DNA from: Tricholomella constricta
Lineage: Eukaryota; Basidiomycota; Agaricomycetes; Agaricales; Lyophyllaceae
DNA: 64,000 nt
Assembly (NCBI GenBank): GCA_013368375.1
Contig: JAACJP010000051.1
Span: 124,001-188,000, forward strand
Reading direction: 5' to 3'
Of the stretch, positions 2,445-25,265 are shown in pieces (position 1 is the first letter of the stretch; the number at the start of each line of letters is the position of its first letter). Below the pieces are notes generated by a model. It worked only from the letters and a program-made list of their open reading frames with translations. It had not been told where the DNA came from and did not search any database. The position numbers were made by a program, and so were the translations under genes.

Positions 2445-5400
2445 CTAAAAGTAACAGTAGAAGATGACGATGATCCTGATAATGAGGGTAGGCCGATAAA
2501 CAGCCTACCGAAGGATCATCCAGCACTTTTATTATCCGAAGAAGAGTTTCAAGAAACTCTTAAGGAGGGGGATAAGCCACCTCCGAAGAAGAGAAAACCC
2601 CAACGACGACAGCAGAAGGCACAAAACGAGCCTTCGAACGAACGAGCACAGGTTGACGAGCCATGCGAAGAACATCAGCGCGATAATGAAGCGCGTAAGA
2701 CGAGCGGGGCCGACAAGGATACGGAATCAGAGCCGTATACGAATACGAGTAATCGATCATTTTGGGATAGACCAAATCCACATCCACAATATGAGTGGAT
2801 GTTCGACCCACGGATGCCGCAAGAATGGAACGCAGTAATAGCGTCAATGCGGGCTCACGAAGGAAGAAATGTAGGCACGCGAGGACAAGCGTACCGAAAT
2901 CCACGGCCTGAGGAAGTATCGGAGCCAACGGAAATGAATTTTCCGGTGAATATACAACGGGCTAAACGGCCGTTGTATCGGTTACCAGTGAAGGATGAGA
3001 GTGACTTTGCTCTCGTAAAACTACGAGCTAGGTTTGATGTTAAACCTAGCAATAAAGACACAGCGCACATTCGCGCTGCAAGAACGGTGAACAGAAAAGG
3101 TAAGGCACCCAATGGAGGCCTTACCGCGGAAGATTATCCACGACTTCGCCAGCAATGGCATGACGAATTCGAAGATATGGTGGGTGGTACGAAACAACAG
3201 CTACCACCCTGGCGGGAAGTCAATCACGAGATTACTCTCATCGATGATGAGAAACAGTACCAGTACCACGCGCCGAGGTGCCCAATGTCCCTTCGCGAGG
3301 AATTCTACGCGAAGGTCAATCGGTATACGGATTCTAAATGGTGGGAGCCTCGTTCGGTGAAGCAAGCAGCGCCGCTGCTATGTATCCCGAAAAAAGACGG
3401 CTCCCTGAGAACACCCTTGGACGCACGCCAGCGTAACGATAACACGATCAAGGACGTTACGCCCTTGCCAGACCAGGAAGTTATTCGCGAAGATGTCGCT
3501 AGGGGAAAAATACGGTCCAAAATTGACTTAACGGATGCGTATGAACAAGTACGCATCCTTGAAAAAGATGTACATAAAACCGCCTTCGCAACGATAGCGG
3601 GAACATACATCAGTAACATCATGCAAATCGGGGACTGTAATGCTCCCGCGACATTTCAACGATTAATGACGTCCATCTTTCGGGACGTCATTGGGAAGTT
3701 CATGCATGTATACTTGGACGATATATTCATATTCTCGAACTCTATTGAGGAACATGAAGACCACTTGCGAGTTGTGTTCGAACGATTACGCGAACAATCG
3801 CTCTACCTTAAATGGAAGAAATGCGAATTGTATTCGGATCGCGTTGATTGCCTTGGTCATATTATTGACGACCAAGGAATTCACCCTGACGCCGACAAAC
3901 TGGCACGGATCCGTGACTGGAGGATACCACGGAATTACAACGATATCCAACGATTCGTTGGACTTGTTAACTATCTGGGACAGTTTCTCCCAGATATATC
4001 TGCATACACTGGTCCACTAATGGCGATGACCGAGAATGGGTCGCCATTCTATTGGAGACCAATTCATCAGCGATGCTTTGAAATGATAAAGCATATATGC
4101 TGCACAACGCCAATTATTCGGCCGATTCAACCGAAGACAGGCGAACCAATTTGGATTATCTGTGACGCCTCCAAGTCAGGCGTCGGTGCGATGTATGGAC
4201 AAGGACCTACATGGATCCAAGCCCAGCCGGCTGGATTCATGTCCAAAAAATTCACTAATGCACAGCAGAATTATGCTGTGCATGAACTCGAGACCTTAGC
4301 TATTCTCGAAGCGTTACTTAAGTGGGAGGATAAACTTGTGGGCTATAAAATCCACATCATTACCGATCATAAAGCCCTCGAATTCTTTAAGACCCAGGTG
4401 AATTTATCACCTAGGCAGCGTCGATGGATGGAATACATGTCGTGATTTAACTTCGACATAACCTATGTGAAAGGCGAACTGAACAAAGTCGCCGACTGTC
4501 TATCGCGATACTTCGAGAGCGATAACCATCAAGATCGTTACGACGTCCACGACTTCGTAGCTGCTGATGCTAGAATCGATCCTACTGGTGAAGATCTACC
4601 AGTACCACGATACCATGAAATCGTGGAAAAAGTAGTTGAGATTCGAGCGATGAAAGACGTAGAAATACGTCGAAGCAAGCGTCTTCAAGAACGCCAGGAG
4701 GATCGAGATGTCGAGGCTCAGATAATGGAGGCTGCGGCACCAAGTACCGCATCCGGAACATCGTCACACCCTCAGAAAAGCATGAGTCCAACCGAACGGG
4801 AACGTACGGTCGGAGATATTGTCCTCGGGAGGGACACAGTCTCTCCTCCCCCAGACAAAACGGATGAAAAGATCCGTCACGACGTTATCCTTGGATACCC
4901 AAAGGATAAACTATTTTCAGTTATTCTCGCTAACCCCAGGGACTTTCGTACGTTCACCACGAAAGACAATCTCATTTGGACCACGAACGCTATAAATGAT
5001 AGCGTTCTATGTATACCGCGAGAACCCGAGCTCATCACCACAATTATTGAGCAAGCCCATAAAACTATGGGCCATTTCGGTGCCGAACGGACTACTGAAT
5101 ATATTCGACGATGGTATTGGTGGCCATCACTAGCCACGACCGTGCGTACGTTTTGTAAAACGTGCGAGTACTGCCAGCAGATCAAGACGTCGAATCAAAA
5201 ACCGTCAGGGAAACTACACTCCCTGCCAGTACCAACTAAGCCTTGGGATTCTATCGGAATGGACTTTATCGGTCCATTTCCAGAATCAAAGGGATATAAT
5301 TACCTATGGGTAGTAATTTGTCGTATGACGAGTATGGTGCATATGATACCCATACATACGACGATGACAGCAGCCCAATTATCATGGGTATACTTACGGG

Positions 5401-10556: not shown

Positions 10557-10565
10557 AACTTTGCA
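10557..10565 (+). repeat. Left flanking direct repeat of the KDZ element
   Basis: AACTTTGCA here matches 24337-24345 exactly, directly outside the two ends of the KDZ element. This is probably the target-site duplication; Zisupton-type elements are reported with duplications of about 8 bases. Confidence 0.6.
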
Positions 10566-11375
10566 CATACAGGCACTACAATGTAGCGTGTCCCACTGTC
10601 CAGCGGGGCCATACATGTAGCCGTATTGACGGCACCAGCGGGGCCGCTGGAGCACCAGCGGGGCCACTACATGTAGCCGTGTTGCACGGTACCAGCGAGG
10701 TCTCTACATGTAGTTGCCTGGCATGGTATCAGCGGGCCGGCCTATATGGTGCTGGGGGCAGCGGGGTGCTAGCAGGGGGTTGCCCACCTCTGCGGACCTC
10801 CGCGGGTCGCTTCTTTTCGGGCATATCTGGGTGCAGCGGGTGGGGGGCTAGCGGGGGGGTTGCTCACCTCTGCGGACCTCCGCGGGTCGCTTCTTTTTGG
10901 GTATATATGGGGGCAGTGGGGTGGGGGGCTAGCAGGGGGGTTGTTCACCTCTGCGGACCTCCGCGGGTCGCTTCTTTTCGGGCATATATGGGGGGGCTAG
11001 CGGGGGAGTTGCCCACCTCTGCGGACCTCCGCGGGTTGTTTTTTTGGGGGCACACCCAGCACTGCAGCGGGCCTGGGGGCAGCGGGGTGGGTTGCCCACC
11101 TCTGCGGACCTCCGCGGGTTGCCTTTCGGGCATATATGGAAGCAGGGTGGGGGCTAGTGGGGGGTTCCCAACTCTGCGGCCCTCCGCGGGTCACTTCTTT
11201 TTGGGCATATATGGGGGCAGCGTGGGGGGCTAACAGGGGGTTACCTCTGCGGACCGCCGCGGGTTGCTTTTTTTGGGGCATATATGGGGGGCAGCGGACC
11301 TCCGCGGGTCATCTTTTACCTCTGTAGATCCTTGTCTGTGGGGCATACTACATGTAGTGTGTCTGGCAGCGGGCC
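10566..11375 (+). repeat. Left terminal inverted repeat with subterminal array
   Basis: From GGCACTACAATG (10572) the sequence matches the reverse complement of the right end almost base for base for about 190 bases, and more loosely to about 11375. The outer part has CTACATGTAG or near-copies four times and ACCAGCGGGGCC repeats. From 10780 to 11311 there are eight units of about 65-90 bases, each with CTGCGGACCTCCGCGGG or a variant. The outermost 6-8 bases differ from the right end. Such arrays in large transposons usually bind the transposase; that role is inferred. Confidence 0.9.
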
Positions 11376-11555
11376 TCTAAGTCTGCGGAACAATACATGT
11401 CCGCGGGTTGTTACATTCTCACCTAGATGCTATATTTTCAAATCTGCGGGGCTCATTTCAAGCCATATGTCCGCGGAGCTCCGTTACCGCAAGAATATTC
11501 ATATTCAAACCACTGACAGAGGTGCACATAAGTATGATGAGTCCAATCCCCCTTG

Positions 11556-12141
11556 TTATAAATCATCCTCCCGAGGCCCATCAATTTCTTCACGCATGGT
11601 ACGAAATGCACTTAGAGCAGTTTCCTCACTGTGAAGTTTGGCAACCTCCACCAGGTAAAGCTGACGAGCCGCGGAGGCATATGATACGTTGTGGAGTTGT
11701 TGAAATGCTTTGATCTCAGCGTGGAGACCAAGGAGCTCTCGCTGGGTCATTGGCTAATAAATGACTGTTAGTTTTGTTAAAACTGTGCAAGTAAACGATT
11801 TACAGGGTCCGCGGGGACTAAAACGGAACCGGAGGCTAGAGCCTGGAAACCCCCATCCTTGTGCATATGTGGCTGATCAAATAGGTAAGCCATGAAAGAC
11901 AATGATCAGCAATTGTTCCGCTTACCCCCAGATCTGCCTCAGCCTTCTTCAACTCTTTTGCCTTTAGCGCCTCAGTAAGCAGCTTCTGCTCCGTAGAAGC
12001 GGCCAAAAATTGGGGAACAAGGTACTCTTTCTCGCCAGACTTGATGACAACATGTCCGCGGAGCGGTGCAGACTGTATGACTGCGGGGTTGGGTTGCGCA
12101 GAGGTTGATGAGTTATCAGTGTTCATGTGTGTGGTGTTCAT
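11556..12141 (-). CDS. KDZ-element small protein A, 137 aa, two exons
   Basis: Exon 1 is 12141-11926 and exon 2 is 11753-11556. The intron (11925-11754) has a GTAAG donor and a TTAG acceptor and joins in phase 0. The protein has a Ser/Thr/Asn-rich start, then a helical, Lys/Glu/Ala-rich middle (residues 35-72), then a second helical part with an SAARQLYLVE segment. No signal peptide or membrane segment is visible. I do not recognise the family. It is transcribed away from the Zn2Cys6 gene, with 285 bases between the two starts, so both could share a promoter. CCGCGG occurs in exon 2 and the intron. The 172-base intron is long for this window, so the model is less certain than the others. Confidence 0.55.
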
Positions 12142-12426
12142 CAGTGCCTGAACAAGGTCCAGAAGAGCCTCGACCTTTATGGTCTGGAACGGCCTTGACC
12201 TTCAACGTGTGATAAGAACCTGGTAGAACAATGAGGAATGATTGATAAGAGAAAATAAGAATCTGGTAGAACAATGAGGAACGATTGATAAGAGAAAATA
12301 TTATATTTAGACACCGGTGTCACGTGATAGTTGTTTAAATTTTCAAAATTTTCCCCCCCTCTTTCCTCACTCTCATATCCGCAACCCCGCGCCCCAACCC
12401 GCACTCCAGCTCCGCGCACTAGCTTC
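12142..12426. promoter_or_regulatory. Shared intergenic region of two divergent KDZ-element genes
   Basis: It contains a direct repeat of about 48 bases (GGTAGAACAATGAGGAA units at about 12215 and 12263, each followed by GATTGATAAGAGAAAATA), then a CACGTGA motif near 12320 and a pyrimidine-rich tract. A bidirectional promoter is inferred from position only. Confidence 0.4.
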
Positions 12427-14336
12427 ATGTCTATTCTCATCCTCAAATCTATTGACCAGGAGCTTGCCATTGCGGTCGCAAGCGGGGATCGTGCCGCCCT
12501 GGCCGCAGTCTACAAGAAAGCAGTATGGTTCATTTTTATTTGACTTCCCTTCAGATTACTGACTTCACTTTATTTATGTAGAAAAAAGTCTGGCCCGAGG
12601 CAAAGGCCAGCACTGACCCAAAGGTGGTCGAGGCCCGGCTCGCGTCTCTCCTCGGCGCCACTATCAGGGAACTGCAGGGCATTCAGCACGGCCCCACGGA
12701 CTTCGATGAGCGGCTCAAGGGCCTCCGCAAAATTGTGCGGGTGCATGAGCGGGCATCCGCGGCCAATGCTGCAAGGGCTGCGGAGGAGGCAAGGGCCGCG
12801 GAGGAGGCAAAGGCCGCGGCGGAGGAGGCGAGGGCAGAGCTGGCGAGGAGAAAGAGGGAGGAGTTGGAGAAGGAGTTGAGGGAGAAGGCCGCGGAGGAGA
12901 AGGCCCAAAGGCAGGCCAAGAAAAGGGCAGAGAAGGAGAGGAAGGAGGCAGAGAGGGAGCGAAAGGCGCTGGAAGAGGAGGAGAGGGCAAGGGCAGAGAG
13001 GGAGAAGGAGAGGGTGAGGGCGGAGAAGGCCGCCCGCAAGAGCGCCTCCAAGGAGAAGGCCGTGGACTTGAAGAGGGCAGAGAAGGAGAGGCGGAGGAAG
13101 GAAAAGGGGAAGAACAGGGAAGTAGCGGAGCCCGCGGGTGTAAAGCCCGGTAAGTTCACTTCTTTCTTTCATTGTTCATACTGACCATTTATTCAAGGGC
13201 CCCGTATCCGTGCCGCGGACCCCCTCCCCTCCGCTGTGGACATGGGCCGCTCATTTCAGGACTTGGCCCGGGAGGATGATGAAGACATGGACGCGTCGCT
13301 CTACGACCCCCCATGTGCGCGATGCCTGCGGAAGGGGCTGGGCTGCTTGAAACCGGGGGGAACGAAGGCGACTGCATGCTTGCCTTGCAAGTATGCAAAG
13401 CAAAGCTGCATCCATGCAGCAGCGCTCGGGGTGTCCGACTCCGCGGGATGGTCGAAGCCCAGCAAGCGGGCAAGAAACTTGACCCCAGAGTATGTCCCAA
13501 GCGAGGAGGACAACGCCGCGGGCCCGTCCAGTAAGTCTTTTCTTTTTTGGTTCACACTATTGTTAACACCATTGCAGTGACCCGCGCTGAGCGTGCCGCT
13601 GCAACGTCCGCCCCTGCCATGTCCGCGCCCTCCGAGTCCGCGGAGCTTGCTGCATTGCGGTCCACCATGAGCCTCATGGAGGCCAGGGTGAAGCAGCTCC
13701 TCAAGCGTGACAGGGAGAGGGCCTTGGATCTGGAGCTCCTCCATTTGGAGGTGGAGGAGCTCCATGAGAAGAACAAGGTGGTGAAGGAGGCAGGGATGGA
13801 CAATGCGGCGTTGGGGGAGCACCATGGGACTGAGCTGTGGCTGATCCGCAAGCGGTTGGTAAGGCTTGAGAGAAGGGGAGCCGGGCAGAAGGTAACACAC
13901 ACAGAGCCACCTGAGGCTGACACCCGGCTGTCGACACCCCCGGAGACGCCTGCGCAGACACCTGGGTTGCAGGATGTGCCTGCAGAATGGGCTGCAGCAT
14001 TCGCCACAGACAACGCCGCGGACCCCGTCGCTCTCGGAATAACCTCCGCCCAAAACAACTCCGCCCCCCCTCCCAACATCCGCCAATTCCATGGCTTCAT
14101 CGGCCCCTCCGCGTGCTTTTCCATTGGGCAGGCCAAGCCGCTTGTCAACTCCGACATCTGCACCATCCACCCCCGCCAAGTCCGCGGATCCGCAAAGTCC
14201 TCCGCCGGCCCCCAAAACCCCCTCCCCAAGGCTGACCACCCCACCACCCACCACCCCGAGCCCCCCTCCCAGCCCTCGAGGTGAAAAGCGCAAGGCGTCG
14301 GATGAGGGTGGTGGTGATAGGCCCTCTAAAAAGTGA
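12427..14336 (+). CDS. Coiled-coil Zn2Cys6 cluster protein of the KDZ element
   Basis: Exons are 12427-12522, 12582-13149, 13198-13530 and 13578 onward. The start ATG opens MSILILKSIDQE. A long charged coiled coil rich in EEARAAEE and AEKERKE repeats spans about residues 75-215. Then C-x2-C-x6-C-x10-C-x2-C-x6-C (CARC..CLPCKYAKQSC, 13310-13412) exactly fits the fungal Zn(II)2Cys6 DNA-binding cluster. A second helical region follows in exon 4. The frame as read stops at 14284, but another frame from 14075 to 14336 gives a more natural Ser/Pro-rich tail ending in a basic, nuclear-signal-like end (RGEKRKAS..RPSKK). The switch falls at a C7 run (14064-14070), so a one-base indel is likely. Probable role: DNA binding, perhaps at the element's CCGCGG sites; this is inference. 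Confidence 0.8.
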
Positions 14337-14580
14337 TGTGCACCCCGCGGACATGATTTTTTGGCGACCCTGTGGACAATCTTTTTTTTTGCAAACCCGC
14401 GGACCTTATCCTTGTTTTTTACCAAACTTACCAATATCTTGTAACACTTCTTCAAATATTAGCAAGTAGAAGAAGTAAATTGTTTTATATATTCAAAGTA
14501 CTATGTACAAAATAATAGTGCTCTTCAAAATCAGAATTTTCTCAAGTAAGTAAAATGTGAATTCAAGTACAAGCAAAAGA

Positions 14581-16778
14581 CTAGCGGCGCTTTGATCTTC
14601 CGATGCCAACCCCCGCGGACTTCTTTGTTTTGGCTCGCGTTGTGGTCCCATTGCGTGTGCGGCTGCCCCTGGTATTGGCACCAAAGTCCGCGGCCTCTGC
14701 AAGCAGTAAATCCTGCTTTGATTTCTTTCGCCTAGTCTGTCCTTCAACATGCTTGCGCTTGCGTGTAACCGGAGGTGGGGGCAGAGTTGGTGTACCAGGC
14801 GCAGAGGGAGTAGGAGTGTTGGGCGGTGGATTGAGGAGCTGCATTGTTGCCGGCACCATATCCCGTGGCAGCCCTTCACCAGGCCCATTGATGGTTGGCT
14901 GTGTCGGACGTCCGCGGGCATTTAAGCAGTGCATTGTTGTTTCATCAATGGTGACCTGACTTTCATTGATGTTGAGACTGTATTCATTAGTCTGTTCTCC
15001 AGGTCCGCGGGGTTCGTTGGGTGCTCCGCGGGGTGCGTTGGGTGGTCCGTGGGAGTCGTTATCTTGTGATTGATTCTGATTGTGTTCTGAGAGTTCATCG
15101 GGTGGTCCGCGGGGTCCGTTATCTGGCGATGGACTGAATTGATTTGGTGAAAGTCCTCCGGGGGGTGACAGATGTTGGTTTTCATTTGGTGCTGGACTGC
15201 CGTGTTCGCCTTCACCATCACCGCCTTCCAGGTCTGACATGGAAATAAGGCTTTCTAAGGGGTCCGGAGCCGGTGCTTTTTTTTTGCCCTTCTTCCGCCT
15301 TGCTTTCTTTGCTGCTGCCGCAGCGGCCAAAGCTTCCTGGTCCTTGCGGGCCCCATAGACTGCCTCCATTCTCTCCTTTTTCTTGTTCAAGTAACAGGAC
15401 CAGCGAAAGGTCGTTGAGGGTCCAAGCCTTTTCTGGCGGGAGCGCCAGAAGTCGAGCAACTCCCGGAGTTCACTCAGTCGGAGGTTCCGTGGGTCTTGAA
15501 TTCGGATGTCCGCGGGCACGTACTCCGCGGAGATGAACATTCCATTGTCCGCCTTTATGGAAGTGAATGGAGGGGATGAGTAGAGGTGTCCCGATGCTAG
15601 TTCTGTAAAAAATTAGTATGGGTGGTCTAATATGACATTATCACATACTATAATGATGTTTTAGGAATGTGCGGACCAGAAGCTCCATGTCATCTTTGCT
15701 CTGTTGCACACCTTCTACCAACTCCGATAGAATGGGAAAACCGTCATTTTGTTGATCCAGCTGTAGGTCTGGACGTGGCTGAATTACTGTATCAGTCTGG
15801 TGCAGTGGGTCTGGTGCAATAGATTCTTGGAGGGAAAGGACATAGTCCATAAGCTTTCTTTTGAAGTCCTTCACCATGTGCGGAAAGGTATCAATGAAAC
15901 CTTTGCTGATCACTCCTGCATTTGCCGCAATGCTGTCATGACTACTCCGCGGTGAACATCAGCACAAGTCCGCAGAGTCGATGAACAACTCACGCCCGAA
16001 CATTCAGTTGCCCATCTTGGCCTTTCCATACCACAAAGGTAAGGGACAGCATGCCCATCTCTCGCCACCTGTTGGCATCCTCATTCTCCACTCGTTGAAA
16101 GCCCCGCTTATCCGCATTCCTGAGATAAGAAGGATCAACTCCGAGATGTCCGCGGACCCCGCGGAGTTACTCACTTGCGCTGCTCCTCAGGGGGAAAGCC
16201 CTTGGTGCTCCACTCACGGGCAGTGGCCTCTGCCTCCTGGAGTTGTTGCGGAGTGAGTTTGTTCATCACCCGTGCCAAAGCCTTGTTGCGTTGCTGGAAG
16301 GCCGCGGTGGGAGATTCATCGACCTCCTCCAGTATCTCTTTCAACTCTTCGGTAATCAAGCCGCGCATTGTCCGATTGACTACCTGGCGCGCAGTAACCT
16401 TCAAATTACCCGATGACTGGTTATATGATGGGTAGGGCCTCCAGTTGTTCCTCACCCAATCTGCCAGTTTCTGTATGCTGATCAGTGTGATGATACAGAG
16501 ATACACACTCTAGCCTGACGGACCGTGGTAGCTGATGCGGACTTCTTGTCGGTCTTCGGCTCTGTTCCCTTTGCCTTCCAGAAGTTAAAAATATCAACCA
16601 AGACTTTGTCCCTAAAAATGGCCGCCCTTTTTGCCTTGTCCGACTCTGACCGGTACTCCTCTCGGTACTTGTTGAGGACCGCGCGCTCGTCAGCCGGGTA
16701 ACGGGGCTCCTTGCTTGTCTTCTTCAGGGCCCCAGCGGCATGTGGGACTGTTTCTGGTGTAAAAATATTTTCGGACAT
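14581..16778 (-). CDS. KDZ-element protein C, 665 aa, five exons
   Basis: Exons on the minus strand are 16778-16509, 16470-16175, 16119-15994, 15932-15649 and 15602-14581; phases join cleanly and the total is 1998 bases. The first intron is only 38 bases. The N-terminal ~400 residues are predicted globular and helical (SENIFTPETV start, then KLADWVRNNW, TFVVWKGQDGQ, GFIDTFPHMVKDFKRKL). The C-terminal 270 residues are low complexity (Pro, Asn, Gly) and end in basic clusters (TRKRKH, TRRKKSK, GRSKRR) that look like nuclear signals. The family is not one I can name. It is convergent with the Zn2Cys6 gene and divergent from the transposase gene, whose start is 254 bases away. That layout suggests a co-regulated accessory factor for transposition. 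Confidence 0.8.
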
Positions 16779-17032
16779 GATGGAGCTCCGTAAAGAAGAT
16801 TTCCTATTTGGGTCAAAAAGTGTTGAACTTCACGCTTGACAGTTGTCCCACAGTACCCCATTTGGCAAGGAAGTTTCCAGTTTGGGTAATATGAGGCACG
16901 GGTACAATCGATGGCCCCGATTGTGAGTGCAGCTGACCTTTGCACCATGAGGACATGTCCGAGAGTAATCAGTGATACATCAGTAGACAGGTTCTGATTT
17001 TTCCACCAAATCAGATCTCACCCTTACCCACC
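16779..17032. promoter_or_regulatory. Shared intergenic region of protein C and KDZ transposase
   Basis: Only 254 bases separate two divergent start codons. The transposase ATG sits in a favourable CCACC context. No CCGCGG lies in this short region, although it is common elsewhere in the element. The promoter role is inferred from layout. Confidence 0.4.
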
Positions 17033-20000
17033 ATGTTGCGTGCAGTAAAGCGCACACGTCGCAAGAAGGATGAAGTCCTTCAGGAAAGTTCTCGTTCACA
17101 TGCCATGGATGTCGAGACAACAGTCAGGCATACCCAGAGGGGTGACATCGTGGAATCCAGGAGTGTCCCTTTGCGCAAGAGGTCACCGGACCCTGTTACA
17201 TCTGCCCCTCAGGGTGTGCAAACCCATGTCCAACCCTTTGAGCATTCGGACATTCACTCAACGGAGCTGGATGACACTGATGAGGTTGCCCCCAAACGGG
17301 CCAAGGTGAATTGTTCTTTGATGTATTGTGTACATGTAACTGAATCAAAGCACAGACACAAGCTGATTACCTTCAAGAGTTTGTGAACCATGTTCCAGAG
17401 CTGTTGGAGGGGCTCCTTGGGAGAGAGTACATTGAGAATCAAACTCAATGTTCTGATTGTCCCAAGGGCAACTATGGACGTTGGCGTTGCCGAGATTGTC
17501 TCAGTGACAGGATACTCTGCCGGGGTTGCATGCGGACAACTCACAGGGACAATCCTCTGCATCGCATTGAGTTCTGGACGGGTCAATACTTCCAGACAGC
17601 TCAGCTGCAGGAGGTTGGTACCTACTTGCTGGTCCCTCACTCCTCCGGGAAAGCACTCTGTGATACGCTACAGCTGCAACAGGAGCAATTGGAGAATTAC
17701 CAGGTGGAATACGACGATAAAGAACAGAAGAACCACCGCACAGAGCAGCAAAATGACCCCGCGGGTCGACATGCCAACTCCGCAGATGCCGCGGACGTGA
17801 CTGAGCAGACTTCCTATGATGCAGAGGACAATGATTACATGGCGCGCTTGAGCCGTGCTTATGGTCAACAGCCAGAATTTCATCCAATTGCTGAGGCAGG
17901 GTCTACTCTGGACACAGTTGAAGTCGAAGTGGACGAGGAAGATGACAATGACACTGGCCTTAATGATGACCTTCCGACGAGAATGCCACGGCACGATGCT
18001 TTCAACAATCGTTATGTGCGCCTTGTACATGTCAATGGAATTCACTACATTCCACTTGTCTACTGTTCATGCCGCGGAGTCCGAGAGGTCAATACAGACC
18101 TGATGCACAAGCGATTGGTGCCTGCAAGCTTCACACGGTACAATACGCTCTTTACCACTGCAGTCCTTGATGACTATCGCCTTGCAAACCTGGAATGTAA
18201 GGCATCTGCATTTCAGTATTGGCACAAGCTCAGCCGGACTACGGCTGCAGCAACAAGCTCCGCGGACATCGACAACTTTTATCGCGAACTCCGCCGGCTC
18301 TCGCGTTCATGGAGATGGCTCAAGAAGCTCAAATGGGGTGGTTTTGGCAGCAATAACAGAGATCCCATGCAGACCACCGCAGGGGAGCTTGCCATCTTTT
18401 GTCCAACATGTCCGCAGCCAGGTGTGAATCTCCCCGCGGGGTGGTCCGCAGACCCGAATAAGTGAGTGCATTAAGTGACGACTGATCATTGTTATTGACA
18501 TTACATGCAGAAAAGTATACATGAGGTCTTTTGTGGCAGACGGCAACTTCAAAGCGGATCATGTTCGCCAAAAGAACAATGCAATGGACGTTTGGCTGTC
18601 GGAAGGGTCAGGTATGATGGCTAACCGGGCCAATTATAATGAGTTCCTGAAGGAAGCATTCAATGTGATGACAGTGAGTCAAGTCCGATTACTTCCGCGG
18701 CATAGCCCGTGGGGTTCATCAACCCCGCGGAGTTCTGTAATAACGTCTATTTTAGAAAGCCCCTTGCGAGAATCAGTTCCGCGCTGTTGAGCAGGCAATG
18801 CTTGTGTCCAAAGCCTGTGATGTTAAAGGAATTGTAGCCATTGCATGTGCGCGGCATGGCTGTTTTGCCCCCAACAGCCTGTCGGACCTCCACGCGGGTG
18901 AGCAACAAAAGAATGTGGACTGGGCATTCCTCCAGGCGCTTAAAACAACAAATGTGGAAGACATCGACCAGGTGTTATTGATCTATGATATTGCCTGCCA
19001 ATACATGGTACACTTTCTAAAGCGCATCGGCCACCTACTCCCCCCAGGAATGACTATTGCTCAGGCCATTGGACTACTCCATGTTCACGGTCACAAAGAC
19101 GATTGCTTTAACCGCTTTGCAACTTCATTCATTCCAGGCGCTGCTATAGTTGCGGGTGAAATTCTGGAGAGTTTGTGGGCCGTGTTGAACACTGTGTCAC
19201 CAATGACCAGAACCGCAACGTTGGCACACCGAGCGGAGATCCTGGACGATCATATGAATGATTCTAACTGGAAGAAACTCCTGCAGATGTGTTAGTAAAA
19301 TTTCATGTATTCTGTTACCATCACTGACAATGTCCGCGGAGTAGCGGTCACATTGTGTCAGACATACGAAAAGGCGACGGAGATGTTGGAGACTGCCCAA
19401 GAATATTTCAAAGGAGTTGCCCAGGGAATAAGCCGCACACAAACCGCAATTTGGGAGGCGGAGATCCAGGAGGCCGAGCAGAGGAGGGTTCATGATGTCA
19501 AGGCTATGGACATCCTCAAAGCGCGCACCGCGGACATCAGGCAGCCAGGAGATTCCAATGGACCTGTGGAGCACGCAACAGCTGAAGAGGAGTGGATACA
19601 ATCAGGCCTTGATATCGAGGAGCGCCAGTAAGACATTTTATCTCTATTTGTCTTCCGGAGCTGAACAGTTTCCATCTAGAATTGGCCTTCAAGACAAAGT
19701 CCGCCAACTTGTCCGTGAACCGCGGGAAGATGTCCGCAAAGCCGTCGAAACTGAAAGACAAAGCCTACGTGCACAAATTGATGTGTTCACGTCAAAACAG
19801 CCGAGCATAAATTTCATTCCTTTGGCCTCCGCGGAGGATGTGCCAGGGAACGTCGAAGCCTTTGATAACCTAGACGAGAACCCCGCGGACCTGCCACCCT
19901 CCGGAGATGCCGCGGTTCCGGCACAGTCAGGCCGTCCTGCACCTGCAGACGGACCCCTACCACCAGAGCAGACACCTATTTGCCTGCCATCCTCAGCTGG

Positions 20001-20744
20001 GGAAACTGAGTCACATCTGGCTAAACTCGAGCTTGCATTGCGCAAGGTTCAAGCGGAGCGTCATCTTCAGAACCTCCGTAATGCAATTGCGGAGAAATCA
20101 TTTTTGTACTCACACGTCATCCGAGTTGCTCCGCGGAAGGGTGTGGTGACACGTGCGCGGGGGAACATCACCACCCTCAATTGCACAATCACCACCCTTT
20201 GTCGGGTGTATGACAAATGCAGAGCAAAGCTCGCCTGTCTGGGTGCGGATGAAGGCACACTGGAAAGGTACAAAATTCTCGACAAGAAGCATGTCAAATC
20301 GAGCACCGCCATACTGGATCCCAACACACCGGGCTCAACTGATATCCGAAGTACCAGTCTTTCCTGGATTTGGCAAATACCTGGTCAAGCGACAGATAGT
20401 CCAGAGGCTGTGCTGGAGTGTATGTCCTTTGGCGTCAAGTCCGCGGAGTTGTTACTGACATGATACCAATAGTCCAACGTGTTCATTTCTTGAGGGCAAG
20501 GGCACAAAAGGATCGATGGACAGAAGAATTCACTCTTGTTCAATATGAAATGACTTGGACCACCCGATATTTCCTTCATCAGGCCCAGATCTGGATAGAG
20601 CGCGGTGCGGAGGCCGCGGCTGCAGGACAACTGGGCCCGACAGCATATGCACGGCGGAAGACAGCCATGTGGAGGGAACTTGCTTGGTTGGCGGAGCAAC
20701 GATTTAAAACTGTCAATACATCATATGTAACATTGCTTCAATAG
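17033..20744 (+). CDS. KDZ transposase with CxC2 cysteine cluster, 1123 aa, seven exons
   Basis: Exons are 17033-17305, 17356-18461, 18511-18673, 18756-19290, 19345-19627, 19680-20419 and 20473-20744; the total, 3372 bases, is a clean multiple of three. A basic N-terminus is followed by the CxC2 cluster (CSDC, CRDC, CRGC..H..H, about residues 115-150). The KDZ catalytic core follows: VADGNFKADHVRQK (18534 on), CARHGCFAPNSLSDLHAGE, YDIACQY (near 18986), HVHGHKDDCF and AGEILESLW. The last reads AGE where DGE is common in the family; the Glu is kept. The C-terminal helical part (residues about 800-1120) has the family's STAILDPN and LSWIW motifs. It should cut and join the element's inverted ends. 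The exon-5 acceptor could be 3 bases earlier. Confidence 0.92.
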
Positions 20745-21107
20745 AATGGACCATGCAGTTTTGTGTTTGCGGGGTGATAAGAATGTCCGCGGACATGAAT
20801 TGTTAAATGTTGCCCAATGTCCGCAGATGTTGCCCTCCGCGGAGCCCCATAGCCTTCCCAATCATGGTGGTGTCTCGGACAACATGATGTAACAACACCA
20901 CGAACATCATAGCTTATACTGGGGATACCTTTGATTTTGAGTTTGCTTGGAGGCTAGAGGATTACATTGATTTTGGGTTTCCTTTAAAAGCTTTGCTGTG
21001 ATAGTCTGTGCAGTCATAAGAGATCCGACAGGTGTCCCCGCTGTCCACCTGATTATCAAAACGTCCGTAAAGGCAACATCCGCGGACATTTGTAAGCAGC
21101 ACGGGTC
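20745..21107. other. Gap between transposase and protein E genes
   Basis: No convincing coding exon is seen. The stretch holds three CCGCGG sites (about 20788, 20838, 21071) and several GCGGAC half-motifs. It is likely to hold the transposase 3' end and the promoter of the next gene. Confidence 0.5.
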
Positions 21108-23026
21108 ATGTTTGCGGACATGGTTGTCACATGCCCTGGTCACATGACAGTGCGAAAGTCACCATCAGTCCATGTGGCTGTGGCAACAGCTTTTTTCCTC
21201 TCGCTATCTGATCCCTTATCGCACCTCATCCAAAGCAAATCAATGACTTCCTCCGCGCTGCACTGGATTGACTCTGAGAGCTTTTTGCTTCCGATGACGG
21301 GCAGGGCCGCAGTTCACCTCCAGGAGGTGCTTTACTACTGCGAATCCCGCTTACGTGTTGCCTTGGTGAAGTTTGCAGGTGTGGATAATGCGGAGGTCCG
21401 GGCTTCAATGCAAGTGTGCTTGGCCGCGGAGCTGGTACGTTGCTGACTTGGCCATTTTCTGGATCATGACTTATTTCTCTACAGAACTTTGCAATGATAT
21501 TCGTCGGCGCTGCAACAAGCATGATGATATCGTGCGAAATTCCCAATATCCTTCGGCTTCTCGCTTCCCATTTCCATGGGCAGCTTGAGCCTCACAGCCC
21601 ACTCGTCCTTTCTGATTCACTGATTCTCGCGTTGGACGGCTCCATTCCGCTCGAGCACCCCGCGGCCGCTGTCTCTGAGTACGCCTGTGACTGGTGGCAC
21701 GAGCACGAAGATAATGAGCTCCGTGAACCACTCAGTCATGACACGTTGGAGGAATGCCTTGTCCTTCACCGCTTTCAGCGGCAGCAAGTGCCACCACTCT
21801 GGGTTCCACAGACGAGAGCAACTCCACAAGTCCTGCAACAGTGTCGCACCCATGTCCAGGGCTTCGAAACAATTTATGAAGCTCAAGCCTATCAGACCGC
21901 CCGCCGTGCCGCGGGATTCCACATGATTTTTGAGGCAGCAAGGCAACAGGCCGCGGGGGCCGCGGGGGATGACAAAGAAATGAGCCCCCATGAGCTCTTC
22001 AGAATCCTTCATCCAGAGGCAATGGAGGGACCAATCGCATCGGAATTTGGGGAGGAGCTGCCATCAGGGACGTACAAGGGAGAGGAATCAGATGAGGAGT
22101 TGGGCGTGAGCTCTGACAGCTCTGAGAGGTATGACCCACTCGGAACTGACATCCACCAGCCCAGGGAGCTGCTGCGTCACGAGATTCCTGATCACTTCCT
22201 CAGGCCGCCGCTCCGAAATAAAGATGTGGAGTATAAAAGCTACTACCAACGGCCCTTGGCAGGGCATGACAAAGGATCTGACAGTGACCCCGCGGAGGCG
22301 GACCCCGCGGACATTCAAAGTAAGAACAGTGATTCTTGTTATTTGAACTGCATTCAAACCTTTTGCAAGGCCAACCAGAATATGTTCCTTCTGAGGATGA
22401 GGACGAGCCCATGGCCGCGGATGTGGACCCCGCGGACATTCAAAGTAAGAACAGTGATTCTTGTCATTTGAACTGCATTCAACCTTTTGCAAGGCCAACC
22501 TGCACCCCGTTACGTATCCCCAGAATATGTTCCTTCTGAGAATGAGGATTCTGAGGATGAGGACGAGCCCATGGGTGAGTTATATTGCATTTGCTTATAC
22601 TTGCATATAGTTACCTTTCACCATTTTGTAGGCCAATCACATGAAGACCCCGATATGGTGTTCTCTGATGAGGACAGCCCCGCGGAGGACGCCCCTGCTG
22701 TCCAAGAACCCGATATTGAGTTTTCCGACAAGGACAGCTCTGCAGAGGACACCCCCGCTCTCCTCAAAGATCCAGATATTGTGTTTTCTGGCGAAGACAG
22801 CCCTGCGGAGCAACAAGACATGGAAGTGCTTTCCCTTTCCGATGACTCAGGTGAGGAAGAGTTTAGGGTCAGGAGGAGACACAGGAGACCACCCGTTGAA
22901 ATGCTTGAGGGCTTATTACGGTTTTCAGATGGTGAAATCAATGAGGAGCTTGCGGTTCAAGTACCCCGCGGACAATACACTGCCGCCTCCTTTGCTCACA
23001 TTCCTTCCAACATTCTTGATGATTAG
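21108..23026 (+). CDS. KDZ-element protein E, 570 aa, acidic tail, five exons
   Basis: Exons are 21108-21434, 21485-22319, 22370-22444, 22494-22574 and 22632-23026, all in phase. The N-terminal ~250 residues appear globular with hydrophobic helices (VHVAVATAFFLSLSD, SMMISCEIPNILRLLASHF) and a WWHEHEDNE stretch. From about residue 290 the protein is acidic and Ser-rich. The last exon holds three diverged copies of a PDI.FS..DSSAED unit. EYVPSE occurs twice here and once in the Zn2Cys6 protein, hinting at shared ancestry or a docking motif. Exon 3 and its intron look like a tandem copy of the neighbouring exon-intron unit. No family recognised. Role in transposition is inferred only from being inside the element. 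Confidence 0.75.
22303..22500 (+). repeat. Tandem exon-intron duplication in protein E gene
   Basis: The block from GACCCCGCGGACATTCAAAG through the following intron to TTTTGCAAGGCCAACC occurs twice, at about 22303-22375 and 22428-22499. Each copy has a CCGCGG site, a GTAAGAAC donor and an AAG acceptor. Both introns (50 and 49 bases) remain spliceable and keep the frame. Confidence 0.85.
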
Positions 23027-23464
23027 GGGTAGCTTTATCTTGATGTCTTTTTTCCTTTTGCTTTGTGATAATGAATATGTTGCCTTGTGATAATAAAAAT
23101 ATACCAATACAGATACACCATACTTGTAAATGAAACATGGAGGGGGAACAATTGTGTCCCTTGTCTATACATTAAAAGCATCCAGAGCCCGCGGACAATT
23201 ATGACCATATCCACAGACATTTATGGTCTGGTCTTCTACAGCACCATGGAGGCCCGTTGCAGCAGCGGGTTTACCCGCGGACATGGGCAATCCCCGCGAG
23301 CCCCTTGCTGCCCTTTGTAGGACCAGATAGGCCCGCTGCAGCCCCAGCGGGGCCGCTGGTACCGTCCCCGACGGTTACATGTAGAGACCCCGCTGGTGCG
23401 GTGCCAGATGGTGACATGTAGTGGCCCCGTATCAGCCCCGCTGATGCCGTGCCAGACAGCTACA

Positions 23465-24336
23465 TGTAGTGATCCCGCTGGCACGTTGGACATGCTACAT
23501 GGAGTCTGCCCCACAGACAAGGATTCATGGAGGTAAAAGACGACCCGCGGAGGTCCACAGAGGTGGGCAACCCCCCGCTAGCACCCCGCTCCCATATATG
23601 CCCGAAAAAAGGTAAGCCGCGGAGGTCCGCAGAGGTGGGCAACCCACCCCGCTGCCTCCAGGCCCGCTGCAGTGCTGGGTGTGCCCCCAAAGAAACAACC
23701 CGCGGAGGTCCGCAGAGGTGGGCAACCCCCTGCTAGCCCCCACCCCGCTCCCATATATGCCCAAAAAAAGGCAACCCGCGGAGGTCCGCAGAGGTGGGCA
23801 ACCCACCCCGCTGCCCCCAGGCCCGCTGCAGTGCTGGGTGTGCCCCCAAAAAAACAACCCGCGGAGGTCCGCAGAGGTGGGCAACCCCCCGCTAGCCCTC
23901 CCATTTATGCCCAAAAAAAGGTAACCCGCGGAGGTCCGCAGAGGTGGGCAACCCCCCGCTAGCCCCCCACCCTGCCCCCACAGGCCCGCTGCAGTGCTGG
24001 GTGTGCCCCCAAAAAAACAACCCACGGAGGTCCGCAGAGGTGGGCAACCCCCCGCTAGCCCCCCCATATATGCCTGAAAAGAAGCGACCCGCGGAGGTCC
24101 GCAGAGGTGGGCAACCCCCTGCTAGCCCCCACCCCGCTGCCCCCACAGCACCATATAGGCTGGCCCGCTGATACCATGCCAGGCAACTACATGTAGAGAC
24201 CTCGCTGGTACCGTGCAACACGGCTACATGTAGTGGCCCCGCTGGTGCTCCAGCGGCCCCGCTGGTGCCGTCAATACGGCTACATGTATGGCCCCGCTGG
24301 ACAGTGGGACACGCTACATTGTAGTGCCCCTACCTG
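23465..24336 (-). repeat. Right terminal inverted repeat with subterminal array
   Basis: This is the inverted partner of 10566-11375. It has eight units carrying CCCGCGGAGGTCCGCAGAG or variants between about 23541 and 24105, then CTACATGTAG palindromes and GGCCCCGCTGG repeats to the end. One unit (near 24020) reads CCCACGG, a C to T change on the opposite strand. The end has CATTGTAGTGCC at 24317-24328. Confidence 0.9.
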
Positions 24337-24345
24337 AACTTTGCA
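24337..24345 (+). repeat. Right flanking direct repeat of the KDZ element
   Basis: AACTTTGCA, identical to 10557-10565; candidate target-site duplication. Confidence 0.6.
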
Positions 24346-24499
24346 TTTCAGCACGGAGTTTGATGTCTGCGGTAGGAGTGCAGACTAGTGCGCTCACCCT
24401 CATTGAAAGAAACGAGCGCATCTGAGTGCGCGCTCTGTCTGGGGTCCAGGCCCTCATTAACAAAAGTAGTTGAGTCAGTATATTTATTTTGTGAGTTGA

Positions 24500-24765
24500 A
24501 CGCGACCACCGCGCACTCCCCGCGCACTCCCCGCACACTCTCCGCGCACTCCCCGCACACCCCCCGCGCACCCATCGCGCACCCATCGCGCACCCATCGC
24601 GCGCTCATCACGCGCACTCGCCCCGCACTCTCGGGCTCATCGCACACTCATTGCACACTCACCGCGCACTCATTGCTCACTTCTTGCGCACTCACTGCTC
24701 ACTCACCGCTCCCTCATCGCGCACTCACCGCTCACTCATCGCGCACTCATCGCGCACTCACCGGA
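24500..24765 (+). repeat. Minisatellite of about 10-base CGCGCACTCA units
   Basis: Degenerate tandem units of the type CGCGCACTC(A/C)(C/T) run over about 265 bases. The open frames across it only translate the repeat and are not taken as genes. Confidence 0.8.
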
Positions 24766-25265
24766 AACATAAAATATGTTTCTTAATTTTATCTTCCCTC
24801 AGGAAACACTTAACATTTATCCCCGGAAACATTGATCGGAAACATCTTTCATGGACCCGGGGAAACATCTGAGAAAAATCCTTTGTGTTACCAGAGAAAC
24901 ATGTGAAAAAACACCCTTAGTGGTTCCCAGGAAACATTTGAGAAAAATCCTTTGTGTTACCAGAGAAACATGTGAAAGAACACCCTTTGTGGTTCCTGGG
25001 AAACATATGGGAAACATCTTTCATGTTTCTTGGCAAACAGTGAAAGAAAAACTCATCATTTTTCCCACATAACGCTTGGGAAACACCTGTCATGGTTCTG
25101 GAGAAACAGTCAAAGAAAAATGATATATTTTTCCAAAAAAAAATCTGGGATAAATAAAATATTTTAATTAAGTGTTTCCTGAGAAAAATATTACCCGTTT
25201 CTTATCCATGTTTCTTTGGAAGTTGAAAAACATCTTTCCTTTCCATGTTTCCCACGGAAACATAG
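24762..25265. repeat. GGAAACAT repeat block, possible MITE
   Basis: The motif GGAAACAT or its complement ATGTTTCC occurs more than a dozen times. A 69-base unit is tandemly repeated (24862-24930 and 24931-24999) with a partial third copy. The block starts with GGAAACAT and ends with ATGTTTCC then CGGAAACAT, so a small inverted-end element is possible. No coding capacity. Confidence 0.65.

Follow-up and report, generated by a model that had tools for sequence, protein, structure and literature searches.

In the genome of the fungus Tricholomella constricta, the window analysed here (64,000 nucleotides of contig JAACJP010000051.1, positions 124,001 to 188,000 of the forward strand) contains a transposon of the KDZ superfamily that encodes, besides its transposase, a zinc-cluster protein of Zn2Cys6 type. 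The element is saturated with the palindrome CCGCGG; this saturation is retained across diverged copies of the same family, and two related elements carry altered CGG words. Whether the self-encoded zinc protein binds and coats the element, probably as an anti-silencing system resembling that of the plant protein VANC, seems to us an evenly balanced question on the sequence features described below.

The element is bounded by inverted repeats of about 190 bp, whose arms (10572-10758 and 24142-24328) are complementary at 99%, and its terminal octamers are CACATACA and CCTACCTG (Table 1). The transposase matches the Pfam domains KDZ (PF18758; E 4.5e-36, 125 bits against a cut-off of 26.6) and CxC2 (PF18803; E 8.9e-18, 64.9 bits against a cut-off of 27), and the minus-strand gene at about 14587-16776 has homologues, at a tblastn identity of 28-50%, in the two related elements that we call B and C66. 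Two further places in the genome are 100% identical to the window over 10566-11500, each with its own 7-bp duplication; reading of the copies C31, C11, C17, C61 and C20 found duplication pairs of their own, and at the copy C15, whose ends were read, no matching 7-bp duplication was found.

Table 1. Features of the KDZ element and its borders, in window coordinates.
Feature	Position	Strand	Remarks
KDZ transposon	10564-24336	+	13,773 bp; 77 CCGCGG
Left target-site duplication, AACTTTG, 7 bp	10557-10563		identical to 24337-24343
Right target-site duplication, AACTTTG	24337-24343		paired with 10557-10563
Left terminal inverted repeat	10564-10758	+	begins CACATACAGGCACTAC
Right terminal inverted repeat	24142-24336	+	closes with GTAGTGCCCCTACCTG
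Left subterminal array, units of about 75 bp, the majority with TGCGGACCTCCGCGGGT	10758-11317	+	repeat families D3, D7
Right subterminal array, in inverse orientation to the left array	23527-24141	+	family D2, inverted pairs I2-I8
Possible small gene, short open frame	11836-12201	-	no Pfam match
Zn2Cys6 gene, four exons	12427-14284	+	splice sites and frames by eye; homologue P0001
Exons of the Zn2Cys6 gene	12427-12522, 12582-13149, 13198-13530, 13578-14284	+	
Zinc cluster, CARCLRKGLGC-loop-CLPCKYAKQSC	13314-13409	+	halves swapped relative to Gal4
Second gene, several exons, approximate limits	14587-16776	-	open frames; tblastn homologues
KDZ transposase gene, CxC2 and KDZ domains, several exons, approximate limits	17000-22300	+	
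Acidic open frame(s)	22478-23020	+	no Pfam match

An initial annotation of this DNA had put the number of CCGCGG sites at about 77 in the element and about ten in the rest of the window; the count is 77 in 10566-24336 and 12 in the other 50.2 kb. The shuffled controls that it proposed do not reproduce such numbers: dinucleotide shuffling of the element yields a mean of 3.4 sites (standard deviation 1.8, maximum 10 in 300 shuffles), and within 6,909 nt of open stretches treated as coding sequence, where codons were shuffled among synonymous positions, 36 sites stand against a mean of 6.6 and a maximum of 15 in 2000 shuffles. With the terminal repeats excluded (11400-23340), 62 sites remain, compared with a shuffle mean of 2.3 and a maximum of 7 in 300, and over the same interval CCGCGG has the top z score among all 4,096 hexamers under a first-order model. 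Genome-wide, the hexamer occurs 12,158 times in 44.09 Mb, which gives an expectation of 3.8 per segment of the element's size (Poisson P 7e-71) and makes the element about twenty times as dense in sites as the genome. Third- and fourth-order models expect 44 and 69 sites, respectively, and are discounted because they are built from the words in question. The sites are distributed over the left (8) and right (7) terminal parts, the exons of the zinc gene (11) and the remainder of the element (51). The earlier statement that they lie in ends, introns and exons agrees with the sites in the ends (15), the zinc exons and the coding stretches (36); as to introns it finds no support in the zinc gene, the one gene with introns located, as its three short introns contain none. 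The largest site-free gap in the window element (1,457 bp, 16302-17759) exceeds chance (P 0.013); it separates the minus-strand gene from the transposase gene and is a possible place for a bidirectional promoter, and in the copies C17, C61 and C11b the largest gaps (about 1 kb) fall at a similar position.

The zinc protein, as laid out by eye, consists of a long charged helix, the zinc cluster and then a coiled-coil-like stretch; the 3' end of its gene is uncertain, an alternative frame reaching an end resembling a nuclear localization signal at 14336. Homologue searches with it returned only P0001, a protein of the same genome (35% identity over 43%) that is named 'Zn(2)-C6 fungal-type domain' and bears the cluster of the C17 copy. 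The cluster is spaced CX2CX6CX10CX2CX6C, which fits the CX2CX6CX5-12CX2CX6-8C pattern of the Pfam family Zn_clus (PF00172). All six cysteines are invariant in the six aligned zinc domains, and beyond these and one proline the sole invariant residue is a lysine four positions after the fifth cysteine, corresponding in position to a CGG-contacting lysine of Gal4. The order of the two halves is unusual: in alignments, the counterpart of the first triple, CxxCLRKGLGC, is the second half of the Zn_clus profile and, with weak E-values (0.5-8) that lie below an unrelated top match, the second half of Gal4, and the second triple, CxxCKxAKxxC, resembles the first half. In natural order the best match of the window domain falls on the second half of the PF00172 profile, and with its halves swapped the domain matches profile positions 1-30 at 16.6 bits. 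Swapping raises the score in four of the five zinc sequences tried, and in swapped order two of the five reach the cut-off; the zinc domain of element B exceeds it in natural order as well (24.5). The window cluster is of Zn2Cys6 type with reversed halves. The exact six-cysteine spacing given in the initial annotation stands; given the reversed halves and a score below the cut-off, the domain is no textbook example of its family. The helix and the coiled-coil-like stretch on either side of the cluster would be fitting for a dimer on a two-fold symmetric site. We predict with considerable confidence that the protein binds the CCGCGG sites of its own element; for CGG triplets as its target the evidence is indirect and comes from the CGG geometries of the relatives.

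The relatives read in the same genome, out of a family with further members there, are C15, C17, C11b and C61 (full or nearly so), C20, which holds a nested element, and the partial C38a, C38b, C43 and C30. CCGCGG occurs 65 times in C15, 94 in C17, 91 in C11b and 107 in C61, and C20 has 86 sites outside its nested long-terminal-repeat (LTR) type element and 3 inside. A zinc cluster was found in seven of the ten sequences searched (the window element and its nine relatives); in C38b, C43 and C30, all partial, CCGCGG is present and no zinc cluster was found in the DNA read. Two degraded KDZ stretches on C1 have 8 (L035) and 9 (L037) sites and no intact cluster motif; L035 includes a decayed zinc-domain match (C1:46395), and in L037 such a match was looked for and none was found. 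Relatives with the sites and no zinc gene, which the initial annotation named as evidence against its idea, were not found among the full elements and are represented by fragments or decayed stretches (C38b, C43, C30 and L037). A locus on C7 (L048, 12 sites in 4 kb) was considered as an independent family and rejected, its KDZ core being 100% identical to that of the window element.

The middle block, which contains the transposase, is 91-94% identical from copy to copy (99.5% for C11b and C20), while the outer blocks, including the zinc gene, align between subtypes at 67-83% and only piecewise, or not at all. The outer blocks carry 4.9-9.2 CCGCGG per kb despite this divergence: the density of sites is retained although the sequence is not. 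In the middle block, the fate of CpG dinucleotides was followed in nine of the 20 ordered pairs among five copies (pairs that are not independent of one another), and in eight of the nine the CpGs within sites are kept better than other CpGs (P 2.5e-2 to 2.6e-5). From the window to C17, for example, 56 of 56 CpGs are kept in sites and 198 of 247 outside; the figures are 55 of 56 and 187 of 247 from the window to C61, and 60 of 62 and 190 of 248 from C11b to C61. Sites are lost mainly through CpG-to-TpG or CpG-to-CpA changes (CCGTGG, CCGCAG, CTGCGG and CCACGG), to which C15 owes most of its losses. Outside the sites, the ratio of observed to expected CpG is 0.60-0.69 in five family copies, with TpG plus CpA in excess (1.23-1.29), compared with CpG ratios of 1.13 and 0.89 in the flanks of the window element. 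In conservation CCGCGG comes 259th of the 1138 hexamers that have 60 or more pooled instances; it is well kept, though not exceptionally.

In two related elements the zinc protein has diverged strongly from that of the window element and the CGG word is altered, which the initial annotation had not foreseen. Element B (L038, C11:115.5-125.5 kb) is 79% identical to the window element in its KDZ core and 37% in its zinc domain. It has 68 CCGCGG in 10 kb, and the base following the site is C in 71% and A in 7% of half-sites; for the window element the corresponding shares are 16% and 50% (Fisher 1e-23 for the A-versus-C difference). Its altered word, GCCGCGGC, keeps the six bases and differs in the flanks. 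The C66 element has a KDZ core 78% identical to that of the window element, a clear CX2CX6CX8CX2CX6C cluster and a zinc domain without a meaningful tblastn match. Its CCGCGG is at background, and direct CGG-N3-CGG occurs 83 times, against 10.5 in shuffles (maximum 24 of 100); the occurrences fall into 34 separate clusters, for which shuffles give 9.5 (maximum 17 of 200). The zinc gene of C66 was predicted from an odd 6-mer profile before the stretch bearing it was read: the first further stretch held only a nested LTR-type element, and the next contained the gene. An early hint of ACCCGG/TCCGGA as the C66 word was superseded, with more sequence, by CGG-N3-CGG. Word and flanks are unchanged in C17, C11b and C61, whose zinc domains match that of the window element at identities of 61, 50 and 45%, respectively. 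At nine distant KDZ loci (core identity 27-31%, with two loci left unaligned) no zinc cluster was found in the DNA read, which was 10 kb for one and 4 kb for eight, where a zinc gene could lie further off; these loci have 0-0.75 CCGCGG per kb and no CGG pair geometry above z 4.3.

Across the genome, 100 places have three CCGCGG in succession separated by 8-38 bases (8 for the reversed pattern), and 145 have three separated by 39-69 bases (reversed pattern 10). Positions were taken from the first 50 of the 100 and the first 50 of the 145, and of these 42 and 47, respectively, lie within 15 kb of one of 36 zinc-domain matches, an area that makes up 2.3% of the genome; six of the eight others in the first set lie within 15 kb of a KDZ match hand-picked as matching. 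The two clusters left over in the first set, C1:553449 and C12:152650, and three outliers in the second, C1:1001828, C5:286485 and C7:95081, lie at a distance from all zinc-domain matches; the latter three, each of 154 bp, may be copies of one other repeat. Because B and C66 have altered words, the distant KDZ loci without a zinc cluster are poor in sites, and the clusters lie near zinc-domain matches, we conclude that the motif appears to track the zinc protein and not the transposase.

Element-encoded proteins that bind repeated subterminal words are known from En/Spm (TnpA, which has been linked to promoter demethylation) and Ac (its transposase). In those elements the sites lie at the ends only, whereas those of the window element are found throughout. 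VANC, according to two reports on the VANDAL transposons of Arabidopsis (PMC5735166, PMC10398659), is an element-encoded DNA-binding protein with a dense short motif unique to its family, and related VANDAL families with diverged VANC have different motifs. The window element likewise combines a dense family-specific motif with an element-encoded protein other than the transposase. The motifs of VANC, as described there, are mainly in non-coding tandem repeats, whereas 36 of the 77 here lie in 6.9 kb of coding sequence; the protein is of Zn2Cys6 type, the superfamily is KDZ and the kingdom is different; and anti-silencing, which has been demonstrated for VANC, is proposed for the window element. 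The system would thus work like VANC, yet it lacks the non-coding confinement and uses a different protein class.

KDZ transposons with an extra gene possibly countering CpG methylation have been described in Agaricomycotina, namely the TET/JBP-bearing Kyakuja elements (PMC12730594). The window element shares with them a KDZ transposase, 7-bp target duplications and CA..TG termini, and is unlike the two Kyakuja families treated there, which lack terminal inverted repeats, in having long ones. A Pfam scan at E 0.05 found no TET/JBP domain in 20 frames of the window element, and the main text of that paper mentions neither Zn2Cys6 nor zinc. Fungal Zn2Cys6 regulators with everted CGG sites include Leu3 and those acting on the yeast PDRE, TCCGCGGA (PMC5559640, PMC5539612). 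With these the window protein has in common the six-cysteine cluster and, in its presumed targets, everted CGG half-sites; it differs in its reversed cluster halves and in that those presumed targets are the element's own body in place of the promoters of other genes. A literature search, within the text accessible to it, returned no published description of such a system for KDZ elements.

We propose that one zinc cluster would read each half of the palindrome CCG-CGG, that the coiled-coil stretches beside the cluster would hold a dimer together, and that such dimers may coat the element end to end, shielding it from CpG silencing by the host. Since the word recurs across the entire element, dense occupancy would be limited to members of the family; the terminal parts, with their 15 sites, may additionally serve assembly of the transposition complex. 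Coating with anti-silencing is favoured because of the spread of the sites over the whole body, the decay of CpG outside them and the parallel with VANC, and a protein that coats the element and counters CpG silencing has, overall, modest support. If binding is granted, an anti-silencing role appears somewhat the better guess; the least certain part is that occupancy would keep host methylation off the element, as VANC does for VANDAL. These roles fit best among those that the initial annotation had suggested (coating the element and affecting its methylation), and its further suggestions of counting copies or marking for excision find no specific support, 62 of the 77 sites being interior. 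More tentatively, and with the balance tilted against it, the zinc proteins might form a private address system, in which each KDZ family prints the CGG geometry of its half-swapped Zn2Cys6 protein over its whole body, against the silencing of its own copies only. Two of the geometries would then be everted, one with A/G and one with C flanks, and the third direct with a 3-base gap, and each family's own codon choice would be bent to its geometry.

Among other readings, it is rather unlikely that the zinc protein binds its sites chiefly for assembly of the transposition complex or regulation of the element's genes, with the interior sites aiding cooperative loading or spreading of occupancy. 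The 15 terminal sites are where transposase accessories usually bind, and CGG-N4-CCG, which adjoins CCGCGG in the subterminal units, is enriched as well (20 against 3.3); but 62 of the 77 sites are interior and 36 lie in coding stretches, where synapsis and promoters do not need them. The sites might instead mark kin DNA for recombination or gene conversion between copies, like uptake or Chi-like words, the zinc protein being their reader. Blocks have been exchanged between copies, as the middle block is so much more alike between subtypes than the outer blocks; that shared block, however, is less site-dense than both outer blocks in five of five copies measured, and we regard this explanation as improbable.

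Survivorship, in which deamination wears down other CpGs and some factor of host or element origin spares CCGCGG, would account for the depletion of CpG outside the sites and the better keeping of CpG within them. It is insufficient for the count, since zero-order base composition, with no CpG depletion, gives 5.2 sites in the element, and the flanking bases are biased too, differently between families; we consider it very improbable. A functionless bias of codons or composition, or tandem duplication, can point to the terminal arrays, which are tandem repeats, and to the alanine-codon context nCC GCG Gnn of 27 of the 36 coding sites. Both kinds of shuffle and the excess that persists without the terminal parts largely refute it, two nested LTR-type elements were read without CCGCGG saturation, and the chance that it is correct is negligible.

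Several observations weigh against coating and anti-silencing as proposed here. Other element-wide roles of a bound protein would leave the same traces. The window's zinc domain falls below the PF00172 cut-off in natural order (14.7 against 21 bits), and in C61, the most site-rich copy, the cluster is closely followed by an in-frame stop, which may reflect an unplaced intron or a broken gene. Sites are spaced at random apart from slight clumping (coefficient of variation 0.97-1.15 across five copies of the family, where random placement gives about 0.98), on which ground nucleosome-like phasing was rejected. Local protection from deamination around sites was rejected as well: neither the CpG ratio nor conservation has a consistent gradient with distance, and the ratio drops clearly only more than 400 bp from sites, in few stretches. 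From the window to C15, CpGs are kept in 44 of 56 cases in sites and 175 of 247 outside (P 0.32), the one exception among the nine pairs. The co-variation of word and protein rests on three words and is ungraded, in that C61 keeps word and flanks at 45% identity and B has changed flanks at 37%; and C66 is a single copy, its signal partly tandem repeats, interrupted by an LTR-type element.

Few systems are known in detail by which transposons recognize themselves and escape silencing, and here a single genome, with transposase cores nearly 80% identical and differing zinc proteins and words, provides a ready comparison of protein with site geometry. If the proposal is true, sequence-specific anti-silencing would reach beyond plants into fungi by way of an unrelated class of protein, a binding motif would be seen to shape coding sequence, and swapped-order zinc clusters that seemingly read CGG would become available.

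The nested elements in C20 and in C38/C66, with ACCGAC and CCCGAC enriched about 4-5 fold, were examined as further saturated elements and rejected; they were left out because of LTR-retroelement-like frames, seen by eye, and the lack of enrichment in CGG geometries (top z 2.9). The insert nested in C20 (within L025-L027, C20:313.6-339.8 kb) is retroelement-like, 12 kb long and about five-fold enriched in ACCGAC along its length. Opposite in strand to its long frames, it has two frames with six-cysteine motifs (CDRC...C) that resemble zinc clusters. On C38 (52-66.7 kb and 82-96.9 kb), a KDZ element of the window's type is apparently split at about base 5200, its halves oppositely oriented and both entering one shared retroelement-like sequence, an arrangement suggestive of an inversion. 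A different KDZ family at L036 (C35:72.5-82.5 kb), with about ten closely similar transposase matches and 10 kb of DNA read without a zinc motif, has repeated words of its own, CTTGCCCA and CAAGACCA. In the window itself, 11-bp tandem repeats lie immediately to the right of the element (24478-24788), followed at 24840-25046 by three units of a 69-bp repeat, 65-87% alike to the first.

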